Assembly: GCA_035764505.1 (NCBI GenBank)
Contig: DASTZC010000112.1
Coordinates: 1 to 42,498 of the forward strand
DNA from: Candidatus Polarisedimenticolia bacterium
GTDB lineage: Bacteria; Acidobacteriota; Polarisedimenticolia; Gp22-AA2; AA152
Reading direction: 5' to 3'
DNA length: 42,498 bases
Position numbers and translations under genes: made by a program. Of the stretch, positions 1 through 9,392 are shown piece after piece. Within the stretch, counting starts at the first letter, position 1, and each line of letters starts with the position of its first letter. The notes below the pieces were generated by a model. That model was not told the origin of the DNA. It worked only from the letters and a program-made list of their open reading frames with translations, and did no database searches.

Positions 1-186
1 GCCCCAGGAATCGCCGTCGTCGATCTCCAGGTTGTCGACCCCGGAGGTGTCGAAGTCGTTGAACTCGCCCCCCAGGCGATAGCCGTAGTAGGGAGTCACC
101 TCGAACGAGCCGGCATGCAGGGGAAGGATCCCCAGGATTGCCGCCGCGCCCGCAATCACCAGCCACTTCGTCGAAGAGTGCCGCAT
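1..186 (-). CDS. Outer-membrane beta-barrel protein, N-terminal part (truncated by window edge)
   Basis: The reading frame starts with the ATG at 186 and runs off the left edge after 62 codons. It opens with a typical Sec signal peptide: a short basic start (MRHSSTK), a hydrophobic core (LVIAGAAAILGILPL) and a likely cleavage site near HAGS. The mature part begins FEVTPYYGYRLGG, an alternating aromatic/polar strand pattern common at the start of small outer-membrane beta-barrels, followed by a very acidic stretch. The start codon overlaps the first possible ATG of the divergent gene on the other strand, so one of the two annotated starts is probably further in. The family cannot be fixed from 62 residues. 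Confidence 0.7.
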   Translation of the reverse strand, partial: MRHSSTKWLVIAGAAAILGILPLHAGSFEVTPYYGYRLGGEFNDFDTSGVDNLEIDDGDSWG

Positions 187-1927
187 GCCGAATCTCTCCC
201 GTGCCGGAATCGCCGCCACCCCATGTGGCGGGGCGGACGATAGCCCGGTTTCCCCCGGACCCGCAAGAGAAAAAACCGGCAAGGTCGCTCTCCCGGTGCC
301 GCTTTCGCTCATTATCTGCGTGATCCTTGCCGCCCTCTCGCTTTCCTGCCGCCAGGATTCTCCGTCGCCGCCGCGGCCGAAGCTGGTGGTGCTCATCGTC
401 GTCGACCAGCTGCGCGCCGATCTCCTCGACCGCTACGACACGATCCTGAAAGGCGGCTTCCGCAGGCTGCGCGACGAGGGGTATCGCTTCTCGCGCGCCA
501 CGGTGGACCATGCCGTCACCCTGACTGCGCCGGGTCTGGTCACGCTCGCGACGGGCACCCATCCATCGCGGCACGGCATCGTCGACGCTTTCTTCTACGA
601 AGGCCCATCGGGAAGCCGGCGCCTGGTCGCGGCCCTTGCCGACGAATCGGAGCCGATCTTCGAAGGCCGAGGTGAGCCGGGAGTCTCGCCGCGCCGTATC
701 CTGGAGCGCACCCTCCCCGAGTGGCTGGCCGCGTCCGATCCGGCGGCGCGCGTCGTCGTCCTCGGATCGGGAGAGACTTCGGCCGCTTACCTCGCGGGAG
801 CCTTCCGGGGGGATGTCTTCTGGTACTCGCCGGCCGCCGGCGGCTACGTCACCTCGGCTTATTACCGCAAGGAAGCTCCCCAATATCTGAAGAGCTTCCA
901 GCGCGAGAAGCTGCCGCGCCTCCAGGAGGAATCCAATCCCTGGGTGGAGCAGGTTCCGGACGAGGGGAAGGCGATGGCCTTTCCCGACATGATGAGCTTC
1001 GAGGCCGACGGGATTCATGTCGTCTTCCCGCACCGGATGGAATCGGAATCCGCGCCGGAGGGCGCCGCCGGAGGCGCCGGACTTGGTGGCTGGCTCGCCC
1101 GGACTCCCGACCTCGACAAGGCCACGCTGCAGCTGGCCGGCGGAGCGGTCGAAGCGCTGGGAATGGGGAAGCGGGAAGGAACTGACCTGCTCCTCCTGGA
1201 GCTGTCCCAGGTCGAGGCCATCGGCAGGCGCTTCGGCCCCTTCAGCCTGGAGCAGCTCGATGGCCTCCTGAAGCTGGATCGCGAGCTGGGGAGTTTTCTC
1301 TCGCTGCTGGAGCGTCAGGCGGGCGGCGGTGGCGTCCTGGTGGCGCTGACATCCTCGCACGGCGTCGCCAACGTCCCCGAGCACGAGCGCGAGCGCGGGC
1401 GCGCCGGCCGGCGGCTATCCGTGGAGCAGGCGCGCGCGGCGCTGGATGCGATGCACCGCGCCGCACCGGGCCCGGGCGCCGCCCGGCCGTCCCGGGATGA
1501 GCAGGAGGCGTTGGGCCGCCTCGATTTCATCGCCGAGGCGATGACGCCCGAGATCCTCACGGGCGGCGAGACGTGCGATGAATTCACCTCCCTTTATCGC
1601 AACTCCTATCGGGCCGATCGGGTCCCGGCCTTTCCCTTCTCCGCGATGGCGGAGGAAGGTGTGGGAAGCGAAGGAATCGTCGTGCGACTGACACGCGAGA
1701 CCCTGGTGGGGAGCGATGCAGCCGCCGGCGGATCGCCTTATGAATATGACCGCTGGGTGCCGCTGATCTTCTGGGGAGCCGGGATCCCGCGCGGGATGTC
1801 GGATCAGCGCGTCCGCACCGTGGACCTTGCACCGACCCTGGGATGGCTCGCGGGCGTGCCGGTGCCCCCGGGGCGCGACGGACGTCCCCTGCGCGAAGTT
1901 CTTTCCGGCATCCCGGCTGTCCGCTGA
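185..1927 (+). CDS. Secreted alkaline-phosphatase-superfamily (PafA/type I phosphodiesterase-like) protein, probable pseudoenzyme
   Basis: The open frame encodes 580 aa. A hydrophobic segment ending in LSLSC (about residues 38-54) looks like a lipoprotein signal. Because the first ATG overlaps the divergent gene, the in-frame GTG at 296 may be the real start. The fold is recognisable: [10 protein letters not shown] with the first metal Asp (D74), a TLTAPG segment with the Thr nucleophile position (T114), [19 protein letters not shown] and a C-terminal IFWGAGIP. The other positions that bind metal or substrate in PafA-like enzymes are changed: the usual Lys/Arg pair reads GETS (E197, S199), the usual SxxDxxGH reads SQVEAIGR (E344, R348), the DHG reads SHG (S391) and the last His is W524. 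The fold is therefore kept but zinc-dependent hydrolysis is unlikely. Numbering is from the ATG at 185. Family call is firm; inactivity is inferred. Confidence 0.8.
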
Positions 1928-2018: not shown

Positions 2019-4664
2019 ATGTCCTGTCCCGAAGAACTCGCCGGCGCCGCTCCCACCGCCGCGGGCAAGCGTCTGACGGTGCAGTACGCCACGGCCCTGG
2101 CGCTGTCCGAATCAGCCTCGCTCACCGACGCCGCGCCGCGCATCCTCCAGGCCATCTGCGAGGTCCTCGGCTGGGAGTATGGCGCCCTGTGGGGCGTGGA
2201 CACGGCCTCCGAATGCATCGCCTGCCTGGAAGCCTGGCACCCGTCCGGATCCTGCCGGGAGTTCGAAGCCTCCAGCCGCGCCAGCCGCTTCCGTCCCGGC
2301 ATCGGCCTCCCCGGAAGGGTCTGGTCGTCGGCATCGCCCGCCTGGATCCCCGACGTCACGCGCGACGCCAACTTCCCGCGCTCCGATTCGGCCGCCCGCG
2401 AAGGTCTGCATGGCGCGTTGGGTTTTCCGATCGTCCTCCAGGACGAGGTCCTCGGGGTGATGGAATTCTTCAGCCGTGAGATCCGTGAGCCGGACGAGGA
2501 CCTGCTGCGCATGCTGGCCACGGTGGGGAGCCAGATCGGGCAGTTCATCGAGCGCCGACGTGCCGAGGAGGCGCTGTGCCGCTACACCGAGGAGCTGGAA
2601 GTCGCCCGCCAGACCGAGGAGGAGAATGCCGCGCGGCTGGCGCAGCTGGTCAAGGAGCTGGAGGGAGCGAAGCGGCGCGCCGAGGAGGCGACCCGCGCGA
2701 AGAGCGAGTTCCTCGCCAACATGAGCCACGAGATCCGCACGCCGATGAACGCCATCATCGGAGTCACCGAGCTGGCCCTGGGGACGCGCCTCAACCGCGA
2801 GCAGCGGGAATATCTCAACACCGTGCGCGACTCGGCCGATTCGCTGCTGGCGCTGATCAACGACATCCTCGATTTCTCCAAGATCGAGGCGCGCAAGCTG
2901 CGGCTGGAGGAGGCCCCCTTCGACCTGCGTGACGCGCTGGCCGATTCGCTGAAAGCGCTGGCCCTCAGGGCGCAGCAGAAGGGGCTCGAGCTGGTGTGGC
3001 ACGTGCGTCCCGACGTCCCGGAGATGCTGGTCGGCGATCCGGGCCGGCTGCGCCAGATCCTCCTCAACCTGGTGGGCAACGCCATCAAATTCACCGAGCG
3101 CGGCGAGGTGGTGGTGCGCGCCGAGGCGGAGTCGCTCGACGGCCGCGAAGTGGTGCTGCGCTTCTCGGTGAGCGACACCGGCATCGGCATCCCGCAGGAT
3201 CAGCAGCAGCGCGTCTTCGAGGCCTTCGCGCAGGCCGACGGCTCCACCACGCGCAAGTACGGCGGCACCGGGCTGGGCCTGGCGATCGCCTCCGAGCTGG
3301 TGGGGCTGATGGGTGGGAAGCTGTGGCTGCGCAGCACGCCGGGGGAGGGAAGCACCTTCGGGTTCACCGCGCGCTTCGGGCGCGCGGCGCGCGCCGCCAC
3401 GCCGCCGGGTAGCTCTGCGGCCAAGGACCTGCACGGCATGCGCATCCTGGTGGTGGACGACAACGCCACCAACCGCTGGATCCTCGAGGAGATGCTGGCG
3501 GGCTGGAAGCTGCGGCCGCAGACGGCCGGGGGCGGAGCCGCCGCCCTGACGGCGCTGCGCGAGGCGCAGCGCACGGGTCGCCCCTTCTCGCTGGCGCTGC
3601 TCGACGGCCACATGCCGGAGATGGACGGGTTCGATCTGGCCGAGAGGATTCGCAACGACCCGCATGCTTCCGACACGCCGCTGCTGATGCTCACCTCGGC
3701 CGGGCGGCCCGACGAGGTGAAGCGCTGTCGCGAGCTGGGGCTGGCGGGGTACCTGACCAAGCCGATCAAGCAGTCGGATTTGTGGGACGCCATCGTCACG
3801 GCGCTGGGCGCGGGGGAGTCCCGCCGTCAGGAGCCTGCCGTGAGCGGCCGTCCGGGGCCCGGGCGGCTGAAAATCCTGGTGGCCGAGGACAACCGGGTCA
3901 ATCAGGAAGTGGCCCGCAAGATTCTCGAGAAGCGCGGGCACGCCGTGGTGATTGCCGCGGACGGATTCGAGGCGGTGCGCGCGATGGAGGAGGCGATCGA
4001 GGTCCCCTTCGACCTGGTTCTCATGGACGTGCAGATGCCCCGCATGAGCGGGCTGGAGGCGGCACAGGCGATCCGCCAGCGCGAGCGCGGCACCCGGCGG
4101 CGGGTGCCGATCGTCGCGCTGACCGCCCATGCGATGCAGGGGGACAAGGAGCGCTGCCTGGAATCGGGCATGGACGAGTATCTCTCCAAGCCGGTGCATG
4201 CCGCGCAGCTGCTGGAGACGGTGGGCCGCCTGGCGGTGCGCAAGGCGAAATCGACGAAGCGCTTCGCGCTCCGCTCGACCCGCGGCAAATCGTTCGACGA
4301 GGCGCTGCTGAAGGAGAGGGTGGAAGGGGACCTGCCGCTGCTGCGCCGCATGGTGCGGGCCTTCCGCTCCGACTACCCGGAGACCCTGGAGCACATCCAT
4401 GGGGCGCTCGACGCGAGGGACGCGGAAGCCCTGCGCAACCATGCCCACGCCATCAAAGGCGCCGCCGCGACCCTGGCCGCTCCCGCCGCCGCCGAAGCCG
4501 CCTTCCGCCTGGAGAAGCTGGCCCGCACCGGAGAGCTCAAGGGGGCGCGCGGCATGTTCCATCAGCTGGTCACCGAGATCCGCAAGCTGGATCGATCCCT
4601 GGAAACCCTGGTCCCCCGCAAGAAGGTCCGGCCGCTCGCGGCCCGAAGGAGAGCGCGTCCATGA
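2019..4664 (+). CDS. Hybrid sensor histidine kinase, GAF-HisKA-HATPase-REC-REC-Hpt
   Basis: An 881-aa cytoplasmic hybrid kinase. Order of parts: GAF-type sensor (about 25-175), a charged coiled coil (about 175-228), HisKA with MSHEIRTP and phospho-acceptor H237, HATPase_c with N-box GNAIKF, G1 box DTGIGIP and G2 box GGTGLGLA (about 280-455), a first receiver (phospho-Asp D529), a second receiver (D670) and a C-terminal Hpt domain (HAIKGAA, H810). It can thus carry a complete His-Asp-His relay in one chain and needs only an external receiver, which the next gene supplies. No transmembrane segment is visible, so the signal is probably cytoplasmic and read by the GAF domain. The open frame extends upstream to 1827, but the ATG at 2019 follows a GGAG motif and avoids overlapping the previous gene. 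It overlaps the next gene by ATGA, indicating translational coupling. Confidence 0.93.
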
Positions 4665-5494
4665 ACTCGATTCTGGTGGCGGAGGATGATCGTCCGACCC
4701 GCCTGCTCCTGCGCGAGCGCCTCAGGGCGGCGAACTTCACCGTCTCCACGGCGAAAGACGGCGCCGAGGCGCTCGCCAAGCTGAAGCGCAAGACATTCGA
4801 TCTCCTGCTTCTCGACATCTGGATGCCGCGCATGAACGGCCTGGAGGTGCTGGCGCACCTGAAGGACTGGTCCTCCAGCCCGCGCGTCGTGGTCATGACC
4901 TCCGACAGCACGCCGGAAACGCTGCTGCGGGCGGTACGCGAGCAGGCCTACCAATACATCACCAAGCCGATCGAGCCGAAGGCGCTGGTGGAGATGCTGC
5001 GCGACATGGCCTCGCACACCCCCACCATGCTGCCGATCGAGGTTCTCTCGGCGCGGCCCGAGTGGCTGGAGCTGCTGGTCCCGTGCACGCGCGAGGCGGC
5101 GGCCCGCATCGAGGGGTTCATGGGGCACCTCGACGCCGACCTGGCCCCCGAGGTCCGCGAGTCGGTCGGCTACGCCTTCCGCGAGCTGCTGCTGAACGCC
5201 ATCGAGTGGGGCGGGCAGCTCGATCCGAACCGCAAGGTGCGGATCGCCTACGTGCGCGCCAGGAAAATGCTCCTCTACCGCATCGCCGATCCCGGCCCCG
5301 GCTTCAGCTTCGATAACCTGAAGCACGCGGCCGTCGGGCACCCGGAGGGCGCGAGCCCGATGGACCACATGATTGTCCGGCTGGAGAAGGGGATCCGTCC
5401 CGGAGGCTTCGGCATCCTGATGGCGCGCGCCAAGGTCGACGAGCTGATCTACAACGAGTCGCGCAACGAGGTCGTGTTCGTCAAGTACCTGTGA
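4661..5494 (+). CDS. Response regulator with RsbW-like (anti-sigma kinase type) ATPase output domain
   Basis: A 277-aa protein. Residues 1-120 are a receiver (acidic pocket AEDD, phospho-Asp D52 in [13 protein letters not shown], Thr in MTSD, Lys in TKP). The C-terminal half (about 135-277) is a GHKL ATPase of the RsbW/SpoIIAB type: N-box [13 protein letters not shown]1-like DPGPGFSF and a terminal [15 protein letters not shown]. This output is a serine kinase or anti-sigma/antagonist binding module rather than a DNA-binding domain. It directly follows the hybrid kinase, whose Hpt domain is the likely phosphodonor. The partner, such as a STAS anti-anti-sigma protein or a sigma factor, is not next door; the ECF-type sigma gene 3.3 kb away is only a speculative partner. 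It converges on the cytochrome gene with a 9-bp gap. Confidence 0.87.
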
Positions 5495-5503
5495 GCGCGC
5501 GTC

Positions 5504-6781
5504 TCAGCCCCCCGTGCGATCGAGCTCCTTCACCTTGATGAACAGCGCGGCGATCACGGCCCCGATCACCAGAAGCGACAGCCCCAGACCCACCCGGCGG
5601 AAGCGCAGCTCGCCGAAGGCGCGGCGGGCCGCTGCCACCCCCTGATCGGCGGTGGTGATCCCGGCGGTCGCCGCCGTCATGAAGCGCTCCAGATCGAAGG
5701 AGTGGGCCAGGACGCGCGATTCCACCAGGCTGTCCTTGGCCTTCTGCAAGGCGAAGCGATCCTCGCTAACCTCCATGCCGGCGCGCTCCGCCCGCTCGAG
5801 CAGCAGCGAGGCTTCCTGGTGGCGCGCCTGCAGCGTCGCGACCGATTGCGCCATCTTGGCCGCCGCGGCATAGCCCGCGTCCCCCTCGCTGTGGCAGCCG
5901 GTGCAGGTCGATTCCTTGCCCACCCCGAGCATCTCGTCGCGCGGGGCCTGCACGGCGTGGTTGCTGTGGCACACCACGCAGCGGATGCAGGGCTCGAGAT
6001 CAATCTTTTTCTTCGCCTCGGTCTCGCGAAACATCGTCGCCTCGCGCGGATGGCAGCTGCCGCACACGCTGGTGACGCTCTCCACTCCTGGAGGCACGGC
6101 GCCGTGGCTCCCGTGGCAGTCGTTGCAGGTCGGGGCGGCGAGGTCCCCCCCATCCACCAGGGCGTGCGCATGGACGCTGGTGCGGTACTGCTCGACCTGG
6201 CCGGTGGGCAGCCCGTAGGACTGCATCTTCTTTTCGTCGGCGTGGCAGCGGCCGCAGGTGGCGGCGACATTAGGCGCGTAGACGGGGGAGCGCGGATCCG
6301 ACACGGCCCGGATTCCGTGCACGTTGTGGCAGTCCACGCATACCGCGGTGCCTTCGTCGCCGCGCGCGTTCTTCTGGCCGTGCACCGAGGTGCGGTACTC
6401 GCTGAGCTGATCCACGCGCGCGTGCGGATTGAAGCGCTTCATGAAGACTGCGTCGGAATGACAGCGGGCGCAGAAATCGGGGATCTGCAGGCGTGAGGGC
6501 TTCTTCCATCCGCGGCGGGGGTCGTGGGAAGCCTCCATGTCGTCGATGGCGGTCGGATTGCCGCCGTGGCAGTCATGGCAGGAGAGCCCGCGCTGGAAAT
6601 GGACGTCGTCGGCCGCGTTCTTGGTGGGCTCGCCTTCCAGCGTCGCGTGGCACAGGAAGCAGCTCGTCTCGGTGGGTCGCAATCCGGCCGGCTCGTGCGG
6701 CGGCTCCGCCGCCCGTGCCGCCGCGGCGGCCGCCGTCAGGATCAGGATCACCAGGCACAGCGCAGACGGACCCCGCTTCAT
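5504..6781 (-). CDS. Nine-haem membrane-anchored cytochrome c (third gene of a Rieske/cytb operon)
   Basis: A 425-aa protein with an N-terminal signal peptide (LCLVILILTAAAAAARA) and nine CxxCH haem-binding motifs: CFLCH, CHDCH, CARCH, CVDCH, CGRCH, CNDCH, CGSCH, CVVCH and CTGCH, all within the first three quarters. The remainder is a helical, charged region (about 300-390) followed by one transmembrane helix (LGLSLLVIGAVIAALFI) and a short basic tail, so the haem domain sits in the periplasm on a C-terminal anchor. Only one base separates the cytochrome b stop from this start, so it is translated from the same message. It probably takes the place of cytochrome c1/f as electron exit from the Rieske/cytochrome b unit. 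Its final acceptor is unknown. Confidence 0.9.
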   Translation of the reverse strand: MKRGPSALCLVILILTAAAAAARAAEPPHEPAGLRPTETSCFLCHATLEGEPTKNAADDVHFQRGLSCHDCHGGNPTAIDDMEASHDPRRGWKKPSRLQIPDFCARCHSDAVFMKRFNPHARVDQLSEYRTSVHGQKNARGDEGTAVCVDCHNVHGIRAVSDPRSPVYAPNVAATCGRCHADEKKMQSYGLPTGQVEQYRTSVHAHALVDGGDLAAPTCNDCHGSHGAVPPGVESVTSVCGSCHPREATMFRETEAKKKIDLEPCIRCVVCHSNHAVQAPRDEMLGVGKESTCTGCHSEGDAGYAAAAKMAQSVATLQARHQEASLLLERAERAGMEVSEDRFALQKAKDSLVESRVLAHSFDLERFMTAATAGITTADQGVAAARRAFGELRFRRVGLGLSLLVIGAVIAALFIKVKELDRTGG

Positions 6782-6782
6782 G

Positions 6783-7892
6783 TCAGCTCCTCTGAGGCAG
6801 GTAGACCAGAAGGGTCATCACTGCCATGAACGCAAGCGCCAGCCATCCCGCCACGGTGAAGGCGCGGCTCACGCGATCTCCCGGAACGGAAGAGCGATCC
6901 AGGAAGGGCACCAGCAGCCAGACCACCGCCGCGGCGCCGATCGCCAGCACTCCCAGAAGCTCCCCTTCGATTCCGAGCACGTGCGCCGGGAGAAATTTCA
7001 GGCTCTGGAACATCCAGGCGAAGTACCACTCGGGCCGGATTCCGGCCGGGGCCGGCGCGAAGGGATCGGCCTTCTCCCCCAGCTCCCAGGGGAAAAGCGC
7101 CGCCAGCGCCGCCAGGACGCCGATCGCCGCGCTCCATCCGATGGCGTCGCGCAGCAGGAAATGGGGCCAGAACGACATGCTCTTGCGCGTCTCGCCGGAA
7201 GCCTGCCGGCGCGCCTGCACGGAGGGGGGTTCGCTCATCCCGTGCTTCTGGACCATCAGCAGATGCAGGCCCACCAATGCGGTGGTCAGGGCGGGCAGCA
7301 CGGCCACGTGCATTCCGTAAAAGCGCGTCAGCGTGCCTCCGGTCACCTGGTCTCCGCCGCGCAGGAAGCGCAGCGCGAAGTGTCCCACCCCCGGCAGCGA
7401 CCCGGCGATGTCGGTGCCCACCTGCGTGGCGAAGAAAGCCAGCTTGTTCCACGGCAGCAGATAGCCGGAGAAGCCGAAGGCGAGCATCAGGAACAGGAGG
7501 AACGCGCCGCTGAACCAGGTCAGCTCGCGCGGACGCCGGTAGGCCTTCATGAAGAAGACGCTGAACATGTGCACGAACAGCACGAAGATCAGGAGGTTCG
7601 CCGACCAGGAATGGATGGAGCGGATGAGCCAGCCGAACGGCACCTTGGCCATGATGAACTGCACGCTCTCGAAGGCCTCCTCGGCCGAGGCCCGGTAGTA
7701 CAGGAGGAGCAGAATGCCGGTGGCCACCTGCACCGAGAACAGGAACAGCGTCATGCCGCCCAGGTAGTACCAGAGGGTATGCCGGTGTCTCGGCACCTGT
7801 TTATGGCGGCCCAGCTCCAGCAGGAAGGACCAGCCCGAGCGCTCCTCGATCCAGTCCAGCACCGCCCTTCCGCGCCCCTCGCCCGCGCTCAT
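6783..7892 (-). CDS. Fused cytochrome b6/subunit IV-type cytochrome b
   Basis: A 369-aa integral membrane protein with the core of a quinol:cytochrome c oxidoreductase. The two haem-ligand His pairs are visible: H94 and H108 (13 residues between) and H195 and H210 (14 between). The 14-residue spacing in the second helix is typical of cytochrome b6 rather than mitochondrial cytochrome b. The Qo-site PEWY motif (RPEWYFAWM) lies in the C-terminal part, which corresponds to subunit IV, so the b6 and IV parts are fused. The LLPWN segment also matches cytochrome b. The start at 7892 overlaps the Rieske stop by ATGA; a longer open frame exists upstream but lies over the Rieske gene. Confidence 0.93.
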
Positions 7893-8323
7893 GTCCGCGA
7901 CACCACGACTTCGCCATTGGCCACGTTGACGGTGTACTCCTCGAGGGGCCGCGGCGGGGGCCCGGAGAGATTCTTGCCGGTCAGGTCGTAAGTGCCGTTG
8001 TGGCAGGCGCACCAGATCTGCCGCGTGTCATCCCGGTACTGCACGGTGCAGTTGAGGTGCGTGCAGGTGGCCGAGAAGGCTTTGTAGCTTCCGTCCGCGC
8101 TCCGTACCAGCAGGCCCGGTAGGCTGCCGAACCGGAAAATCTTTCCGGCGTTGGGCTTCAGCTCGCCGTCGCGCGCGGCGACCACGCGATCGGTGGCGGC
8201 CTCCGGAATGTCGGGAGGGGAGATATAGCGCGACACGGGATAGAGGACCGAGGCGGCCATGGCTCCCAGCGAGGTTCCCAGGAACCAGTTGATGAAGCGG
8301 CGTCGCGTGGGTTGCTGGCTCAT
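7889..8323 (-). CDS. Rieske [2Fe-2S] iron-sulfur protein
   Basis: A 144-aa Rieske subunit. The N terminus [14 protein letters not shown] resembles a Tat-type signal that stays as a membrane anchor. The cluster-binding loops are CTHLNC and CACHNG, holding the two Cys and two His ligands; the second box has Asn where Gly-Ser is common (CPCHGS). It is the first gene of a three-gene minus-strand operon with fused cytochrome b and a nine-haem cytochrome c, so it should carry electrons from the quinol oxidation site to the haem domain. No second oxidoreductase subunit or oxidase is visible in the window. Confidence 0.93.
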
Positions 8324-8795: not shown

Positions 8796-9392
8796 GTGCC
8801 GAAATCTGCCTTCCCCGATGACCGGACTCTGATCGAAGCCTACCTCCTCGGCGAGCCCGCCGCGCTGCAGACCATCGACCGCTGGATCGACGCCGCCCTT
8901 CGCCGCCGCTTCCTCGCCTTCGACGCGCTCGACGATCTCCGCCAGGACGTGCGCATGCGCCTGGTCAAGAGCCTGCGAGCCGGCAGCTTCCGCGGCGGAG
9001 CCTCGCTGAAGACCTACGTCCACCAGGTTGCCCACAACGCCGAAGCCGACTTCCTGCGCCGCGTCCAGGGACCTCCCGCGCTGCCCCTCGTCCATGAAGC
9101 GAGCGAAGCCGGCGCCGCGGAGAAGGGCGCCATCGCCGAGGAGCTGGTGCGCCGGGTCCTGCGCGGTCTTTCGGAGATCGATCGCAAGCTCATGGCGATG
9201 TTGTTCGAGGAGCGCTGCAGCTATGAAGAGACCGCCCGCCGGCTCGGGAAGTCGGTCGGGGCGATCAAGGTGAGAGTGCACCGCTGCCGCAGGAAGATCC
9301 GCGAGCGCTACGGCGATCTCGCCGCCGAGCTGCACGATGGGCGAGCGGGCCCGGGTGGGATTCCTCCCAGGACGAAGCCGCGCAAAGAGTGA
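8796..9392 (+). CDS. ECF-type RNA polymerase sigma factor
   Basis: A 198-aa sigma-70 family protein with region 2 (about 10-85; DDLRQDVRMRLVKSL and SLKTYVHQVAHNAEADFLRR resemble the -10 binding helix) and region 4 (about 120-180; LSEIDRKLMAMLFEERCSYEETARRLGKSVGAIKVRVHRCRRKIR, a helix-turn-helix for the -35 box). Region 3 is missing, as usual in ECF factors. The start is GTG at 8796; no strong Shine-Dalgarno motif is visible. No anti-sigma gene follows. The downstream neighbour, an S9 peptidase, is 282 bp away and has its own promoter candidate, so this looks like a single-gene unit. Confidence 0.87.
   Translation: MPKSAFPDDRTLIEAYLLGEPAALQTIDRWIDAALRRRFLAFDALDDLRQDVRMRLVKSLRAGSFRGGASLKTYVHQVAHNAEADFLRRVQGPPALPLVHEASEAGAAEKGAIAEELVRRVLRGLSEIDRKLMAMLFEERCSYEETARRLGKSVGAIKVRVHRCRRKIRERYGDLAAELHDGRAGPGGIPPRTKPRKE

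Follow-up and report, generated by a model that had tools for sequence, protein, structure and literature searches.

In PhoK (SPAP), two zinc ions are described as being held at M1 by His491, His304, and Asp300 and at M2 by His346, Thr89, Asp345, and Asp49 (PMC3145672). As set out in the same source, Asn110, Lys171, and Arg173 touch the phosphate, while His93 hydrogen-bonds the carbonyl of the nucleophile Thr89. The combination of Thr89, Asn110, Lys171, and Arg173 is given there as the signature of the PafA/SPAP class, and NPP-type phosphodiesterases are described as having a two-metal site with a nucleophile Thr and an Asn (Asn111; PMC3145672). A PafA variant engineered as T79S/N100A/K162A/R164A is represented in the PDB by entry 5too.

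In the literature searched, pseudoenzymes of the alkaline phosphatase superfamily are little described: one paper mentions the superfamily together with pseudoenzymes, and none combines pseudoenzyme, sulfatase, and alkaline phosphatase. The clearest case met is that of YejM (PbgA/LapC), whose periplasmic domain is reported to have an alkaline-phosphatase-superfamily scaffold without the catalytic residues and to act as a lipid A sensor (PMC13125744). The YejM pseudo-hydrolase (PMC13125744; also PMC7773988, PMC8745692) offers an earlier example of an envelope protein with such a fold being read as a pseudoenzyme. However, one group reports that it is a Mg-dependent phosphatase (PMC7576196). The inactivity of YejM is thus disputed, and that claim illustrates how a pseudoenzyme reading of this kind may be challenged.

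The locus considered here encodes a protein related to PafA and PhoK in which most of the metal site has been replaced. It is probably an exported, PafA-derived pseudoenzyme, dead or crippled as a catalyst and with a retained binding role, a reading to which sequence comparison and a structural model lend a probability of roughly 0.6. If the protein is a pseudoenzyme, it may work by analogy with the pseudo-hydrolase scaffold of YejM. The two differ in that YejM belongs to the arylsulfatase/LtaS branch, is an inner-membrane protein with five TM helices, and carries different residues.

The gene and its predicted fold

The window, which is the whole stretch of 42,498 nucleotides that was analyzed, is one whole contig (C112) of a genome of 4.46 Mb in 288 contigs. 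On its plus strand, a single open frame of 580 codons beginning with ATG at 185 runs throughout positions 185-1927, as seen from the ORF list and the translation, and GC by codon position in this frame is coding-like (0.736, 0.528, and 0.803). The start codon is uncertain. A divergent ORF on the minus strand (1-186), is cut by the contig end and has a signal-peptide-like start. Its ATG shares bases with the one at 185, casting doubt on the latter as initiation codon of the pafA-like gene. Alignments with homologues set in around residue 37, and a GTG at residue 38 provides an alternative start. Inspection of the sequence reveals a hydrophobic helix at residues 38-54 that precedes Cys55, and because of this arrangement the protein is probably exported. 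Scans of positions 1-2200 for promoters and terminators found none.

The product of 185-1927 matches the Pfam family Phosphodiest (E 6.7e-27) and the NCBIfam PafA model (E 3.9e-67), the latter with 227 bits against an equivalog cut-off of 650; its relatives and the genome's PafA paralogue on contig C180 likewise fall below this cut-off. Among solved structures, those closest in sequence are PafA, an alkaline phosphatase from Flavobacterium (E 5.4e-51), and PhoK/SPAP. An AlphaFold model (pLDDT 88.2, pTM 0.88) has its best PDB matches in the PafA entries 5too and 5tj3 (Z 47.1, rmsd 2.3-2.4 Å, 483/486 residues), with a Foldseek TM of 0.76 by query length against PafA and a Z of 42.4 to SPAP (3q3q). 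The model of an orthologue from the same family (G003) reaches a pLDDT of 94.2, with Z 55.8 to 5too (rmsd 2.2, 481 residues) and 54.7 to 5tj3. By sequence relationship and predicted structure, the window protein is a PafA/PhoK-type alkaline-phosphatase-fold protein, and it has its fold in common with PafA 5tj3 and PhoK/SPAP 3q3q over nearly the whole protein. The initial annotation had recognized a well-kept PafA-like scaffold, with D74 as the first metal Asp and T114 at the nucleophile position, and had named structure prediction as a check; alignments and the predicted fold bear this out.

Active-site residues in the window protein and its relatives

The active-site positions of PafA are D38, T79, N100, K162, R164, D305, H309, D352, H353, and H486. 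These numbers were tied to the window sequence by pairwise PafA and PhoK alignments together with the SPAP numbers given in PMC3145672, and four of them (T79, N100, K162, and R164) appear in the title of 5too. All codon positions below lie on the plus strand. Two of the six Asp/His zinc ligands are kept, both at M2: D74 (GAC, 404-406; PafA D38/SPAP Asp49) and H392 (CAC, 1358-1360; PafA H353/SPAP His346). The remaining four, comprising all three ligands of M1 and one of M2, are replaced. At M1, E344 (GAG, 1214-1216) takes the place of an Asp (PafA D305/SPAP Asp300), R348 (AGG, 1226-1228) that of a His (PafA H309/SPAP His304), and G515 (GGC, 1727-1729) that of the His in the 'HGSP' motif (PafA H486/SPAP His491), whose codon is CAC in the three closest relatives. 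At M2, S391 (TCG, 1355-1357) replaces an Asp (PafA D352/SPAP Asp345).

The class signature is similarly reduced to its Thr. The nucleophile position (PafA T79/SPAP Thr89) is occupied by T114 (ACT, 524-526), which is Ser in the three nearest relatives. The position of the phosphate-contacting Asn (PafA N100/SPAP Asn110) is A135 (GCT, 587-589), and Ala is found there in all four members of the clade. The site of the phosphate-binding Lys/Arg pair (PafA K162/R164), lost clade-wide, lies in G196-E197-T198 (770-778); aligning with PafA or within the family puts the pair at G196/T198, aligning with PhoK puts it one residue on at E197/S199, and the residues are non-basic in either case. At the position of SPAP His93, the window protein alone has Leu (L118; CTG, 536-538), with His in 126 of the 128 covering rows of the survey described below and Phe in one other. 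Judged from the sequence by these two features, the two-zinc site and the signature, the protein is a descendant of the PafA/SPAP class that stands outside the enzyme class.

Several of these substitutions had been called in the initial annotation. The changes of Asp to E344, His to R348, and Asp to S391 hold in the alignments and in the survey, whereas the proposed change of His to W524 (TGG, 1754-1756) was misplaced, the lost ligand being at G515. W524 is no ligand and occupies a variable column (H in 70, R in 40, and W in 9 of 130 rows), in which the eight other rows with Trp have intact ligands wherever covered. The assignment of the Lys/Arg pair to E197/S199 was right in that the residues are non-basic and follows the PhoK alignment, but the PafA and family alignments point to G196/T198. 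The retention of H392 and the changes of N100 to A135 and of H118 to Leu had gone unmentioned.

Type I sulfatases carry a C/S-x-P-x-R nucleophile motif for formylglycine. A sulfatase of this kind was rejected, as the nucleophile position of the window protein reads T114-A-P-G-L and offers no Cys or Ser. An NPP-type phosphodiesterase was rejected as well, with Ala135 at the Asn position and four of six metal ligands gone. Sequence comparison likewise speaks against a metal site rebuilt elsewhere: no new His or Cys was found in the active-site loops, and the new His residues at 126, 424, and 400 lie outside the active-site motifs, that at 400 being common with G003. The last 520 residues contain 8 His in the window protein, 16 in G003, and 15 in G018, against an outgroup median of 15 and minimum of 6.

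Another way to preserve activity would be a crippled or re-tooled enzyme with one metal, in which D74, T114, and H392, assisted by S391/E344 or water, might hold Mg2+, Mn2+, or Ca2+ at M2 while R348 supplied the charge of the M1 zinc, by analogy with the sulfatase-type and LtaS/YejM-type superfamily members that work with one metal. The retained nucleophile position and the two M2 ligands are consistent with such an enzyme, as is the report of activity in YejM despite a degenerate site, in which Arg451 occupies the place of a His in EptA and LtaS (PMC7576196). However, that activity is at odds with structures described as showing no metal site (PMC13125744, PMC8745692). In the window protein itself, the M2 Asp of the 127 other covering rows is Ser, H118 and the phosphate-binding Asn, Lys, and Arg are lost, the nucleophile offers no Cys or Ser for formylglycine, and the active-site loops have gained neither His nor Cys. 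A one-metal enzyme is thus unlikely.

Homologues were sought in 41 genomes of the class and in 396 genomes sampled evenly from a larger set of the phylum. Three close relatives were found: G003 (51% identity), G018 (45%), and G002, which is matched by two fragments lying at the ends of contigs (59 and 55%) that we infer to be one gene. G002 and G003 belong to the family of the window genome, and G018 shares only its class. The window contig is syntenic with contig C134 of G002, where the shared genes include the pafA-like gene, the hybrid kinase, the regulator, the S9 peptidase, and others, and with contig C42 of G003 further downstream. A search of the window genome's own contigs with the query returned only two far relatives; the second PafA of this genome, on C180, has a full ligand set.

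The ligand survey comprises 130 rows (the query and 129 others), which are sequences and not genes; two genes of G002 are each represented by two rows. A 44-row alignment, on which the tree and constraint tests were built, leaves out four relatives (L016, L045/L002, L023, and the L051 fragments), and these and eight more matches were added for the survey. Every covered ligand is intact in the 129 other rows. Column 344 has Asp in 126 rows and Glu in the query alone (3 gaps), column 348 has His in 126 and Arg in the query alone (3 gaps), column 391 has Asp in 127 and Ser in the query alone (2 gaps), and column 515 has His in 125 and Gly in the query alone (4 gaps), while no change at D74 or H392 occurs in any of the 128 rows that cover them. 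All six Asp/His ligands are kept in G003 and G018. The G002 pieces keep D74, D391, H392, and H515, the positions of D344 and H348 lying outside them. Conservation of E344, R348, and S391 in close homologues, which had been suggested as a check, is therefore not seen, as the nearest covering homologues keep Asp, His, and Asp. Since these homologues retain the Asp/His/Asp/His set, the loss is that of a single lineage rather than of a conserved pseudoenzyme family. Such a family is rejected for now, with no other row of lost ligands in the 41 class and 396 phylum genomes.

The three relatives share a different set of changes, with Ser at the nucleophile, Ala for the Asn, and Gly and Tyr/Phe for the Lys and Arg. 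The engineered PafA of 5too is the laboratory counterpart of this state, in which metals are intact wherever covered; the window protein differs from 5too in having Thr at the nucleophile and in also being without a metal site. It had been proposed that ligand and substrate positions changed together in the window protein, but the Asn/Lys/Arg changes are common to the three metal-intact relatives and the ligand changes are private to the window protein. The rows L039:5653-7284, L040:5092-6711, L041, and L053 make up a PafA-like clade that has natural Ser/Ala/Gly/Tyr(Phe) at PafA 79/100/162/164 with metals intact wherever covered. The PafA-like rows L135, L139, L140, and L123 have Asp for the phosphate-contacting Asn and keep the remaining site residues.

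Constraint and timing of the ligand loss

The 44-row set has 32 columns in which 38 or more of the 39 outgroup rows carry the same residue. Outside the active site there are 22 of these, all kept by the query; of the 10 within it, 7 have changed (H118, N135, K196, D344, H348, D391, and H515). Changes at the zinc ligands (4/6) against none at the 22 other near-invariant columns give a Fisher p of 7e-4. Among columns with one residue common to G003 and G018, the share at which the query differs declines smoothly with outgroup conservation, from 36/57 columns (below 30%) through 31/93 (30-60%) and 11/76 (60-90%) to 2/39 (at least 90%), and the ligand changes also exceed this last class (Fisher p 0.0014). 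At an 80% conservation cut (75 columns), changes number 17 in the query, 12 in G003, and 16 in G018; eight are found in the query alone (H118L, L327M, D344E, H348R, R363K, D391S, H515G, and A553G).

Identity to the G002 fragments at fourfold sites is 26/62 and 11/45, near saturation given a composition expectation of 0.35-0.41. All three bases of the R348 codon differ from CAT (G003) and CAC (G018), and all three bases of the S391 codon differ from GAT in G002, G003, and G018. The kept scaffold, the near-saturated fourfold sites, and the two ligand codons changed at every base fit poorly with plain decay or a very recent accident. The contention in the initial annotation that this is not simple decay gains support, with 22/22 non-active-site residues kept against 2/6 ligands.

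These codons also bear on the chance that a chimeric assembly or sequencing errors produced the odd residues. The gene does lie close to the beginning of a metagenome-type contig, with base 185 as the first of its ORF. An artefact would, however, have to alter four codons spread over about 500 bases, by 1, 3, 3, and 2 bases, while leaving the frame open throughout, in a contig that is syntenic with G002 and G003, and is most improbable.

The tree places the query sister to G002 (support 95/91), with an end branch of 0.61 against 0.17 for G002. In three-way counts with G003, private differences of query and G002 stand at 61:15 for the N-terminal and 31:16 for the C-terminal piece. Pooling seven neighbouring ORFs gives 304:207, two of them being skewed alone (78:44 and 110:72). 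Since the neighbours are also skewed toward the query, part of the acceleration is genome-wide. The excess over the neighbours has p 0.0004 for the N-terminal piece and 0.002 for both pieces, and is not significant for the C-terminal piece (p 0.44). The longer query branch could reflect relaxed constraint just as readily as the gain of a new role.

This leads to the alternative of an early pseudogene, in which an enzyme whose phosphate clamp had already gone became dispensable and is drifting, its frame open by chance and most of its scaffold conservation predating the loss. The accelerated branch, the confinement of the losses to one lineage, and the intact PafA elsewhere in the genome are in keeping with it, and the gene may be dispensable in that a search of the same-genus genome G001 gave nothing at E<=1e-25, although G001 is 89% complete and the neighbouring S9 peptidase is also absent from it at E<=1e-80. 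Drift does not readily explain why four of six ligands but none of 22 other near-invariant columns changed, nor the smooth constraint gradient along the query branch, the two ligand codons changed at all three bases, or the 580-codon open frame with coding-like GC by codon position. A pseudogene in the making is therefore rather unlikely. The ligand loss may have come late on the branch, and the scaffold constraint could therefore predate it. Selection after the loss of catalysis may lie behind the scaffold constraint along the branch and the multiply hit ligand codons, and it is likely that constraint persisted after the ligands were lost, as far as one sequence of the lineage can tell.

Proposed history and gene neighbourhood

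With the fold kept and the catalytic residues lost, the window protein has the structural attributes of a pseudoenzyme. Because four of six metal ligands are gone while the closest relatives retain them, it probably descends from a working enzyme and has been retained for a different function. The same conclusion had been drawn in the initial annotation; the confident fold, a loss of ligands exceeding that of other conserved positions, and the lack of new His or Cys in the loops agree with it, but the loss of the clamp preceded that of the metals. With M1 gone and M2 impaired, two-zinc hydrolysis of the PafA type would be excluded. E344 and R348, four residues apart at the old zinc-ligand places, could form an ion pair that replaces zinc, and the pocket may have been retained for binding, whether of another protein or of a ligand that is phosphorylated or anionic.

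The three relatives share the loss of N100, K162, and R164 yet keep the metals wherever covered, which argues that the clamp was lost first and the metals later. In the first step, the ancestor common to the window lineage, G002, G003, and G018 would have lost the Asn/Lys/Arg phosphate clamp and retained the metals; in the second, the window lineage would have lost the metals. Phosphatase duty could have fallen to the intact PafA on contig C180. As a metal-less member and metal-bearing orthologues exist in one family, single-residue swaps in a well-studied enzyme could probe which loss came first. The case also carries a warning for annotation, as a match to PafA can be inactive and counts of phosphatase genes by fold or profile only would include the window protein.

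A hybrid histidine kinase with the architecture GAF-HisKA-HATPase-REC-REC-Hpt is encoded downstream on the plus strand (2019-4664, start assumed), and its counterpart also follows the pafA-like gene in G002. It is followed on the same strand by a response regulator with REC and HATPase_c_2 domains (4661-5494), which overlaps the kinase stop codon. In its fullest form, the history would be a two-step decommissioning within one family, first of the clamp and then of the metals, that yielded an envelope ligand-binding pseudoenzyme with E344-R348 in place of zinc, perhaps reporting to the adjacent kinase and regulator pair. Taken as a whole, this scenario is doubtful, and the kinase link is its weakest part, as no membrane-spanning connection is evident and the pairing is seen in the window and G002 only. 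Further along the window, a cluster on the minus strand (5504-8323) encodes a multihaem cytochrome c, a cytochrome b, and a Rieske protein, and an ECF-like sigma factor lies at 8796-9392.
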